DNA of 64,000 nt from NCBI GenBank assembly GCA_019359435.1, contig JAHHHI010000065.1, positions 1 to 64,000 on the forward strand, given 5' to 3'. The translations under genes and the position numbers were made by a program. The DNA comes from Kaiparowitsia implicata GSE-PSE-MK54-09C. Its GTDB lineage: Bacteria; Cyanobacteriota; Cyanobacteriia; Elainellales; Elainellaceae. The notes under the pieces were generated by a model. That model was not told where the DNA came from and ran no database searches. It saw only the letters and a list, made by a program, of their open reading frames with translations. Below are positions 4,241-60,795 of this stretch, piece by piece (positions within the stretch are counted from its first letter, which is position 1; each line of letters begins with the position of its first letter).

Positions 4241-4313
4241 CGCGCCCTGGAGGACTCGAACCCCCGACATCAGGTTTTGGAGACCTGCGTTCTACCAACT
4301 GAACTAAGAGCGC
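4241..4313 (-). tRNA. trnW: tRNA-Trp (CCA)
   Basis: A complete 73-base cloverleaf. The acceptor stem GCGCTCT pairs with AGGGCGC. The D arm is TTAGTTCAGTTGGTAGAAC, the anticodon stem-loop is CAGGT-CTCCAAA-ACCTG with anticodon CCA, and the T arm is GGGGGTTCGAGTCCTCC. The 3' CCA is not encoded. It lies downstream of rplS on the same strand, an arrangement common in cyanobacteria, although secE does not follow here. Confidence 0.95.
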
Positions 4314-11593: not shown

Positions 11594-11641
11594 AACCTAA
11601 GTTCGGGATAAGCTCAAACCCCCTTAACCCGAACTGACGTT
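11594..11641 (+). mobile_element. family B inverted-repeat element, palindrome-free 48-bp form
   Basis: It has the two termini of family B only (AACCTAAGTTCGGGATAAG and the complement of AACGTCAGTTCGGGTTAAG) joined by CTCAAACCCC. AAGT flanks it on both sides (11590-11593 and 11642-11645), a 4-base target duplication. It lacks the two long palindromes found at 20046, 31357 and 41201. Confidence 0.6.
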
Positions 11642-12509: not shown

Positions 12510-12582
12510 AGCTGGTGACAAGACTCGAACTTGCGACCGGCTGATTACAAATCAGCTGCTCTACCAACTGAGCTACACCAGC
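12510..12582 (-). tRNA. trnT: tRNA-Thr (TGT)
   Basis: A complete 73-base cloverleaf. The acceptor stem GCTGGTG pairs with CACCAGC. The D arm is TAGCTCAGTTGGTAGAGC, the anticodon arm is GCTGA-TTTGTAA-TCAGC with anticodon TGT, and the T arm has GTTCGAG. The CCA end is not encoded. Confidence 0.95.
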
Positions 12583-19726: not shown

Positions 19727-19806
19727 AACGTCAGTTCGGCAAATTTCTAAAGCCGTGCTGCCCGCGACGCGGATAGCCCAGCTTTACGCTGATCAACCTG
19801 AGTTCG
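19727..19806 (+). repeat. partial family C repeat
   Basis: It begins AACGTCAGTTCGGCAAAT and runs through AAAGCCGTGCTGCCCGCG, the same hairpin arm as in the fuller copy at 41012-41127, then diverges. It ends near AACCTGAGTTCG, which resembles the other family terminus. Related degenerate starts occur at 31263. Confidence 0.4.
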
Positions 19807-20045
19807 ACAACAACCAAAGCTTGAAAGCCCTGCGAAATAAAGATCCTGAAGATTAAGGCTTCTTAGGCATCTGTCAATAAAAGCTTTTTGTTGAGAAAAT
19901 CGAATCAAACGCTCAATTGCGAGCCTTATTGACCCAAGGCTAATTGGGCAATGATTTCTGAACCCTTGATCCCATAGCAGATTCAGCGATTGAATCCCAT
20001 CGGACTCACGTCCCTGTCCCTCCAAGGTTCATCCCTTGATTCAGT

Positions 20046-20169
20046 AACCTGAGTTCGGGATAAGCTCAAACCCTTAATGTGCCGTGCGCGACGCGCACGG
20101 CACATTAAGGGTTTTGGGGCATCGCGCGTCGCGCGATGCCCCAAAACCCTCTTAACCCGAACTGACGTT
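20046..20169 (+). mobile_element. family B element, double perfect palindrome, copy 1
   Basis: A 124-bp element with ends AACCTGAGTTCGGGATAAG and (complement) AACGTCAGTTCGGGTTAAG, flanked by CAGT on both sides (20042-20045, 20170-20173). Two palindromes fill the inside: 23-base arms around A20091 (20068-20090 with 20092-20114) and 20-base arms around T20129 (20109-20128 with 20130-20149). They share GGGTTT, so the two hairpins overlap. No ORF. Confidence 0.75.
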
Positions 20170-20467
20170 CAGTAACGTTCAACACTGTTGAACCTACGTC
20201 AAATTGGTATCACGCCACGGTATCTGGTATTGCGAGGGGTGCCTGCACAACACGATCTAAGTACTTATCTAAACTCTGAGTGCTATTGCCGAGCTGATAG
20301 AACCATCGGCGTTGTGTGACTTTTGAGCAACGCGGATGACACAACGCTTAAAGCACAAGCTACAGTTCAAGCGCTAGAGAATATTAGACAACATGTATAA
20401 ACTCTAAATTTGAGTAGACCCTAGAGATCGGGTCTGGAATCCAGTTGAGTCAGGCTACTTTAGAAGT

Positions 20468-30949: not shown

Positions 30950-31577
30950 GATCCTAAAAAGGAGGGAACCGAAGCAGAAGTGCTGCGGGCACGATGCTCA
31001 GACCAATCGCTATTTCATCATTCAACCCAACCATCCAATTTCAGCACAGTGATCTGAGAAGCGGCTTAATTCATTGCACTTAGGTAATGCAAGGCGATGG
31101 GATAGAACGCCAAAAAGATGCCGATAGGTCAATTGATTTAGTTGCTATACGGTCAACACAGGGAATGTAGACGCGGCGTAAAGCCATGTTTTTTGTGCGC
31201 ATGAGATTAGGGATGGGGCGATCGCTCCTGCCGTGACCATCTGCAGGCGATTGTCTATAGACAACGTCAGTTCCGCAAATGTCTAAAACCATGCTGCCCA
31301 CTGTGCTATCAAGCTGAAGACGATCTGATCGGCATTTACCTGATTGGCATTAATCTAACGTCAGTTCGGGTTAAGAGGGTTTTGGGGCATCGCGCGACGC
31401 GCGATGCCCCAAAACCCTTAATGTGCTGTGCGCGTCGCGCACAGCACATTAAGGGTTTGAGCTTATCCCGAACTCAGGTTAATCTAGCGATGGCAAGGGG
31501 TTTATTGAGGATTGCTACAGTTTTGTTTTCCCAGCTTTCAGACGGCGTATATGTAAGGGTTCTACCAGAGTGAACCC
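30950..31577. other. intergenic region with repeat scars
   Basis: About 630 bp without a supported gene. It includes a degenerate family C start (31263-31310) and a complete family B element (31357-31480). Confidence 0.5.
31357..31480 (-). mobile_element. family B element, double perfect palindrome, copy 2
   Basis: A 124-bp element in the opposite orientation to copy 1, flanked by AATCT on both sides (31352-31356, 31481-31485). Both internal palindromes are perfect. Compared with copy 1 the arm GTGCCGTG has become GTGCTGTG and its partner CACGGCAC has become CACAGCAC, a compensated change. Confidence 0.75.
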
Positions 31578-41127: not shown

Positions 41128-41200
41128 TGGTTAGGATTGACGACATTGGAGGATTTTGGAGGATTTTGGAGACACTAAACTCCCAAAAATCCTCTAAATA

Positions 41201-41325
41201 ACCTGAGTTCGGGATAAGCTCAAACCCTCAATGTGCCGTGCGCGATGCGCACGGCACATTGAGGGTTTTGGAGGCACCGCGCGTCGCGCGGTGCCTCCAA
41301 AACCCCCTTAACCCGAACTGACGTT
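41201..41325 (+). mobile_element. family B element, double palindrome, copy 3
   Basis: A 125-bp copy flanked by AAAT on both sides (41197-41200, 41326-41329). The first palindrome has 22-base arms around GAT, the second 21-base perfect arms around T. Changes against copy 1 (TTAATG to TCAATG, GCATCG to GCACCG) are matched on the opposite arms. Confidence 0.75.
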
Positions 41326-60722: not shown

Positions 60723-60795
60723 GCCCCCATCGTCTAGAGGCCTAGGACACCTCCCTTTCACGGAGGCGACGGGGATTCGAATTCCCCTGGGGGTA
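60723..60795 (+). tRNA. trnE: tRNA-Glu (TTC)
   Basis: A 73-base cloverleaf. The acceptor GCCCCCA pairs with TGGGGGT (one G-T wobble), the D arm is CGTCTAGAGGCCTAGGACA, the anticodon loop CTTTCAC carries anticodon TTC, and the T arm is GGGGATTCGAATTCCCC. In cyanobacteria this tRNA also feeds glutamyl-tRNA reductase for heme and chlorophyll synthesis. An integrase gene begins 95 bp downstream. Confidence 0.96.

Follow-up and report, generated by a model that had tools for sequence, protein, structure and literature searches.

The window analyzed here is a 64,000-nucleotide stretch of contig JAHHHI010000065.1 from the cyanobacterium Kaiparowitsia implicata GSE-PSE-MK54-09C. It contains three copies of a short repeat built from two overlapping palindromes. 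Copy 1 occupies positions 20046 to 20169 on the forward strand (124 bp), copy 2 lies at 31357 to 31480 on the reverse strand (124 bp), and copy 3 at 41200 to 41325 on the forward strand (126 bp). An earlier note, made from the letters alone, had described three such copies; all are present, with copy 3 corrected from a start at 41201 and a length of 124 to 125 bp. Each copy starts with AACCTGAGTTCGGGATAAGCTC and finishes with CTTAACCCGAACTGACGTT. In element coordinates, hairpin 1 covers positions 23 to 69 and hairpin 2 positions 64 to 104, with bases 64 to 69 belonging to both. The arms are 22 bases long in hairpin 1 and 19 bases long in hairpin 2 (20 in copy 3), and every loop has 3 bases. 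In copy 1, hairpin 1 runs from 20068 to 20114 (loop at 20090 to 20092) and hairpin 2 from 20109 to 20149 (loop at 20128 to 20130), 20109 to 20114 being common to the two. The corresponding hairpins lie at 31412 to 31458 and 31377 to 31417 in copy 2, and at 41222 to 41268 and 41263 to 41305 in copy 3. Folded as DNA, copy 1 reached -55.6 kcal/mol (z = -13.9), a value equaled by none of 200 shuffles. Copies 1 and 2 differ at 2 of 124 sites, element positions 38 and 54, which pair with each other (C-G in one copy, T-A in the other).

Each copy is flanked by its own short direct duplication. The three reported previously, CAGT, AATCT (AGATT on the other strand), and AAAT, were all found, and they lengthen to TCAGTA, TAGATTA, and TAAATA once one base is trimmed from each element end. 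For copy 1, TCAGTA stands at 20041 to 20046 on the left and at 20169 to 20174 on the right. The trimmed element starts 5'-AC, and under the IS982 5'-AC rule the mobile unit of copy 1 is 20047 to 20168. A 48-bp form with both ends but without the hairpins lies at 11594 to 11641 on the forward strand, flanked by a TAAGTA duplication; it is a fourth family member in the window, beyond the three noted before. Rfam also placed three tRNA genes in the window (4241 to 4313, 12510 to 12582, and 60723 to 60795).

The family is large and shows the marks of mobility. The window genome (G000), a draft of 6.72 Mb in 109 contigs, contains 285 ends that match AACNTNAGTTCGGGNTAAG with no more than one mismatch; the reversed control matched once. 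Exact left ends number 88. From 103 loci of this genome (the window, fetched stretches, and two transposase loci) we recovered 131 elements, of which 82 measure 124 bp and 15 measure 48 bp, with other lengths for the rest. The 124-bp length was the commonest in all three genome samples, namely, G000, Leptolyngbya sp. FACHB-8 (G003), and what is apparently, from the agreement of one locus together with its flanks, the metagenome-assembled Synechococcales cyanobacterium M55_K2018_004 (G013). Copies were collected through near-exact ends (in G013 mostly through a left-arm pattern), so old copies are undersampled. All pair and loop counts below refer to 124-bp copies that align without gaps and are at least 85% identical to a reference (81 of 82 in G000, 63 of 65 in G003, and 44 of 46 in G013); elements of other lengths, which were excluded from these counts, made up 49 of 131, 14 of 79, and 30 of 76, respectively. 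Duplications of at least 4 bp flank 68 of 81 copies in G000, 54 of 63 in G003, and 18 of 44 in G013, where shuffled flanks would be expected to give 3.3, 2.5, and 1.0. After trimming, 63 of the 81 G000 copies carry duplications of 6 to 7 bp. A paralogous empty site could be aligned for one 124-bp copy (L040:14472 versus L146), and empty sites were likewise found for two copies of a relative (L129 versus L276; L267 versus L253) and for a 48-bp copy of another relative (L204:7693 versus L234). The duplications and empty sites thus support the description of a mobile element with its own duplications. Flanks lacking duplications, which would have spoken against it, are not the rule in the window genome, although 26 of 44 G013 copies have no duplication of at least 4 bp. 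Most elements lie between genes: of 81 empty sites, 6 fell within an open reading frame (ORF) of at least 200 amino acids, compared with 983 of 1,492 random positions, and in a second set 1 of 56 fell within long ORFs, compared with 983 of 1,500.

A parent with the same ends, the search for which had been proposed along with the original description, was found in an IS982-family insertion sequence represented by degenerate copies. Two degenerate insertion sequences of 981 bp bear the family's ends. The ORF at L032:9612-10124 (170 amino acids) reached 149.3 bits with NF033520, the NCBIfam model for IS982 transposases (cutoff, 130); the reading frame is interrupted upstream, and a 64%-identical copy yields an ORF of 231 amino acids. 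Among 10 protein matches in the draft window genome, none could be recognized as an intact full-length transposase gene, some copies being cut by contig ends. The 124-bp element itself consists of two hairpins between its ends, with no transposase gene of its own, and no transposase remnant was noticed in the interior between the ends. The IS982 sections of a published review give ends that start 5'-AC and list a Nostoc member with 6-bp repeats (PMC7335449). Because its ends match those of IS982-type insertion sequences, and given the duplications and empty sites, the element is an IS982-type MITE, ordinary in kind but unusual in its double-hairpin interior. Judging from the same three features, it would be a non-autonomous element moved by IS982-family transposases that recognize its ends.

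We screened 60 genomes drawn as relatives, the window's own among them, scoring up to 14 candidates in each. Matches of any kind occurred in 7, and full-length matches in 3: the window genome, G003 (75 to 77% identity among the matches listed), and G013 (86 to 90%). In a sample of the class, 20 of 388 genomes had matches, and near-full-length matches occurred in the same three genomes only; further carriers may have been missed in this sample because 2 candidates per genome were scored. A scan of a genome collection with a window-type pattern returned no match, the window's own records perhaps lying outside that collection, and a looser pattern led to two carriers. Three cyanobacterial plasmids had the ends only, and a second plasmid search gave no match. 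In other genomes, the ends enclose interiors without the two hairpins. We assembled a hairpin-less set of 20 such elements from 11 genomes in 6 families, drawn from 27 loci after exclusion of those without a simple end pair or of other makeup; 18 are 100 to 104 bp long, and two are identical in sequence. Six hairpin-less elements folded as DNA at -10.3 to -17.5 kcal/mol, compared with -52.9 to -59.8 kcal/mol for five double-hairpin copies.

Several related repeats came to light in these surveys. One genome of the class sample, G322 (2 contigs; 236 first-look candidates), has loci L291 and L302, which hold one hairpin-less 103-bp element; it would be a good near-complete genome in which to study the hairpin-less form. 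At loci L115 and L121 of G034, a relative, repeats matching hairpin 2 lead into another hairpin, and their ends are of the TTCGGCAAAT kind. A further repeat family, whose ends (AACGTCAGTTCGGCAAAT) are related to those of the present element without being the same, occurs in the window at 19727 and 31263 and elsewhere at L058:12508, L098:8962, and L105:6362; 24 such ends lie within one mismatch in the window genome. By eye, several of its copies have two hairpins, whose arms vary among copies yet appear matched, and this family is perhaps an independent double-hairpin MITE.

The hairpin-less elements bear on how the hairpins arose. When the 20 elements were compared with the G000, G003, and G013 consensus sequences, they matched the left arm of hairpin 1, in the same place, at 13.3, 11.4, and 12.4 of 22 positions (at most 7.2 when shuffled), a comparison that is biased because the set was found by left-end similarity to a query. 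The right arm of hairpin 1 was matched at 6.2, 5.0, and 4.8 positions, inside the shuffled range. The right arm of hairpin 2 was weakly matched (7.0, 7.5, and 6.5 of 20, against at most 6.5, 6.6, and 6.0 when shuffled), and the left arm of hairpin 2 showed no match (4.3, 4.2, and 4.1). That the likeness of the hairpin-less relatives is confined to the outer arms suggests that inverted copying made the hairpins. Most likely, a hairpin-less IS982-type MITE would have had its outer parts copied inverted toward the middle, giving two overlapping hairpins; the course may also have run in reverse, as hairpin loss. Shortened forms exist as well. The 48-bp form lacks the stretch between the AAACCC repeats, and in two 86-bp forms the two hairpins are joined at their centers, which fits palindrome instability. 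Two further loci had other interiors: at L093:858-1104 (247 bp) a different repeat is apparently inserted in hairpin-element sequence, and at L101:6846-6993 (148 bp) the interior is a different palindrome.

Within the double-hairpin copies, the arms match each other more closely than chance would predict. Paired cells numbered 3,299 of 3,321 (99.3%) in G000, 2,411 of 2,583 in G003, and 1,677 of 1,804 in G013, whereas column shuffling left paired fractions of 0.951, 0.879, and 0.872. When 26 haplotypes were picked at random from each of the three genomes and the resulting 78 were aligned without gaps (the structure counted excluded the outer six pairs of hairpin 1), 98.3% of 2,730 cells were standard pairs, compared with 83.8% after shuffling. 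Two-sided changes occupied 415 cells of this alignment, against 133.8 in shuffled columns and at most 41 with the partners slid. The compensated arm changes seen among the three window copies are statistically supported in the copies analyzed and exceed chance. Matching is nonetheless incomplete. Between nearest-neighbor haplotypes, each of the three genomes had more one-sided than compensated arm differences (20 to 10 in G000, where the 81 analyzed copies represent 55 distinct sequences; 66 to 16 in G003; and 124 to 36, plus 2 triples, in G013), and G000 has 9 private one-sided arm changes in its 81 copies. In G003, hairpin 1 is largely unmatched toward its outer end, with pair 25-67 unpaired in 58 of 63 copies and pair 26-66 in 59 of 63. 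Uncompensated arms, which the earlier note had named as evidence against its reading, are thus not what prevails in the window genome, though one-sided changes are frequent, chiefly in the two relatives.

We defined a private change as a base found in one copy of its set. Private changes matched on the opposite arm numbered 7 in G000, 4 in G003, and 5 in G013, compared with 0.1, 0.1, and 0.2 in shuffled columns (in total 16, where chance would give about 0.4). Transversions make up 10 of the 16; they count against compensatory substitution because a G-U intermediate is impossible for them. One-sided private changes, at 39 transitions and 13 transversions, differ from the matched set (P = 0.013); relative to changes outside the hairpins (44 to 29), the transversion excess of the matched set was not significant (P = 0.16). 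In some copies, the three arms that share bases 64 to 69 also change jointly. The joint states are AAAGCC in 5 G000 copies; AACCCC in 3 G013 copies, with AAACTC and AAATCC in 1 copy each; and AACAGC in 1 G003 copy. All three arms agree in only 20 of 44 G013 copies and 3 of 63 G003 copies.

The three-base loops occur in both orientations. Loop states form reverse-complement pairs in each genome: GAC/GTC, GGT/ACC, and GAT/ATC in G000; AAA/TTT, GAA/TTC, AAC/GTT, and others in G003; and CCG/CGG, CCA/TGG, CTG/CAG, and others in G013. When the columns of loop states were shuffled, closure was met or exceeded in 257, 2,000, 1,596, 78, 1,306, and 1,022 of 2,000 shuffles for the six loops, mostly a nonsignificant result. 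We judged this test weak because the column makeup is itself symmetric under inversion, and we used near and far pairs of copies and identical backgrounds in its place. In pair counts that are not independent, because pairs have copies in common, exact three-base inversion of G003 loop 2 accounted for 68 of 75 near pairs (copies separated by no more than 2 differences outside the loop) against 87 of 922 far pairs, and inversion of G003 loop 1 for 29 of 98 against 45 of 940; G000 loop 1 gave 38 of 44 against 110 of 502, all of the near cases but 1 being single A-T exchanges; G000 loop 2 gave 46 of 63 against 263 of 272, with no enrichment among near pairs; and G013 offered one near pair only. 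As a bound, a loop coexists with its reverse complement in 12 backgrounds that are identical at the 118 other sites. The 9 such backgrounds in G000 involve only single A-T exchanges; the 3 in G003 involve only three-base inversions. In one G000 background of 22 copies identical at the 118 sites, the states of loop 1 stand at 20:2 and those of loop 2 at 14:7:1. Since the G000 loop differences are mostly single A-T exchanges, point mutation could produce them. Among G003 haplotypes separated by at most 5 differences, three adjacent differences occurred 45 times at loops, every one an exact inversion, and 8 times outside loops, always at positions 44 to 46. In G000 there were 3 such triples at a loop, 1 of them an inversion, and none elsewhere.

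What we observe are footprints, namely, private changes matched on both arms, loops exactly inverted, concerted changes of three arms, and deletion forms, from which we infer replication events. Taking these together, we consider it likely that the element is a MITE moved by an IS982 transposase, that its hairpins came from inverted copying, and that its arms are kept alike mainly by template switching. Under this mechanism, known as quasi-palindrome correction, one arm would mutate, and a later template switch during replication would copy arm onto arm, so that the mutation either disappears or is transferred to the opposite arm; the loop too would be inverted by a switch that crosses the hairpin tip. 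The earlier note had offered two causes, hairpin-templated repair and selection acting on an RNA hairpin or cruciform, without choosing between them. Of these, the templated branch is favored by the exact loop inversions, the mostly transversional private matches, and the three-arm changes, and selection alone explains these less well.

Selection on the fold, in which an RNA hairpin or DNA cruciform would serve the host or transposition and the matched changes would be ordinary compensatory substitutions, would account for the retention of pairing across three genera despite arm divergence, for the prevalence of the 124-bp length in all three samples, and for the mostly intergenic positions. 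It sits poorly with matched changes that occur in single copies and are mostly transversions with no G-U route, and with the exact loop inversions. Nor did one strand consistently favor G-U intermediates: outside the shared arm, G.T and A.C mismatches numbered 7 to 2, 11 to 23, and 34 to 33 in the three genomes. Rfam 15 at gathering score returned three tRNAs only for the whole window, with no family at the element, and a scan of 19900 to 20320 revealed no terminator-like site within the element at copy 1. A selected structural RNA was rejected as a candidate on these three negative results, which further favor a templated cause. We regard selection on the fold as improbable as the source of the matching, though selection may favor hairpin copies as such.

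Two other processes could in principle shuffle alleles among copies. Short-read assembly of palindromic repeats might mix alleles and loop orientations, and short repeats could be misassigned in this way in all three assemblies, which are drafts of 109, about 100, and about 360 contigs; when k-mers do not span a palindrome, its two orientations, loop included, follow a single path through the assembly graph. However, hairpins of 41 to 47 bases are shorter than a usual read, private matched changes are present in one sampled copy only and so are not alleles borrowed from other sampled copies, and three genomes from different projects agree, which makes a sequencing or assembly artifact very unlikely. 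Ectopic gene conversion, in which matched alleles would spread among copies without the arms of a copy templating each other, is the least probable explanation. Identical alleles are indeed common to many copies, as the 55 distinct sequences in G000 reflect, but the single-copy matched changes have no known donor among the copies examined, and conversion by itself would leave the loops uninverted.

Template switching within the element, the reading that we prefer, may extend further. In its strongest form, template switching in replication would have created the hairpins out of a hairpin-less MITE and would since have driven the compensated evolution of their arms, with loops inverting faster than other sites are substituted and without selection on the fold. 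We advance this version tentatively, at somewhat below even chances; if it is true, the element is a natural system in which covariation arises through mutation alone. Covariation of paired bases is widely read as evidence of selected RNA structure, and much of the covariation in this element appears to stem from copying error instead. Because the insertions represent largely independent lineages, the copies from three genera form a natural mutation record of bacterial template switching, and an unusually clear one of this kind of copying error. These data also carry a warning that bacterial hairpin repeats should not be called functional RNAs on covariation alone.

No earlier description of the element appeared among the openly licensed papers that our searches listed, but several known systems resemble parts of it. 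REPINs and REP elements are likewise short, palindromic, intergenic, and present in many copies. They are defined, in the case of REPINs, by RAYT transposases (HUH tyrosine transposases), and the present element is set apart from both by its target duplications and IS982-type ends. A review (PMC10969869) names Nezha and further MITEs of cyanobacteria, which are likewise non-autonomous repeats. Closer are the IS982 insertion sequences and MITEs, which in the sections concerned share 5'-AC ends (as in our trimmed element), duplications of variable length, and ends common with an insertion sequence encoding an IS982 transposase (PMC7335449, PMC9769881). The IS982-derived MITE of Cardinium is given there as about 240 bp and derived from its insertion sequence (PMC9769881), whereas ours is 124 bp. 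The double hairpin that forms our element's interior is absent from those sections of the Cardinium description (PMC9769881) and the IS982 review (PMC7335449).

For the mutational process, the nearest counterparts are template-switch mutations in yeast genes (PMC8604942) and rRNA (PMC8794818). The relevant portions of these studies describe arm homogenization and spacer inversion as outcomes, and the cases are alike in that arms are made alike, the loop is inverted, and several bases change together. Relative to the cases set out in those portions, ours differs in being a multicopy bacterial MITE whose two hairpins share one arm and whose events are known from footprints only. In the part of the rRNA work that sets out its test, a compensatory change combined with loop inversion is treated as the strongest possible support and is extremely rare (PMC8794818). 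In the element described here, by comparison with that account, loop inversions are common and mostly occur without a simultaneous arm change.
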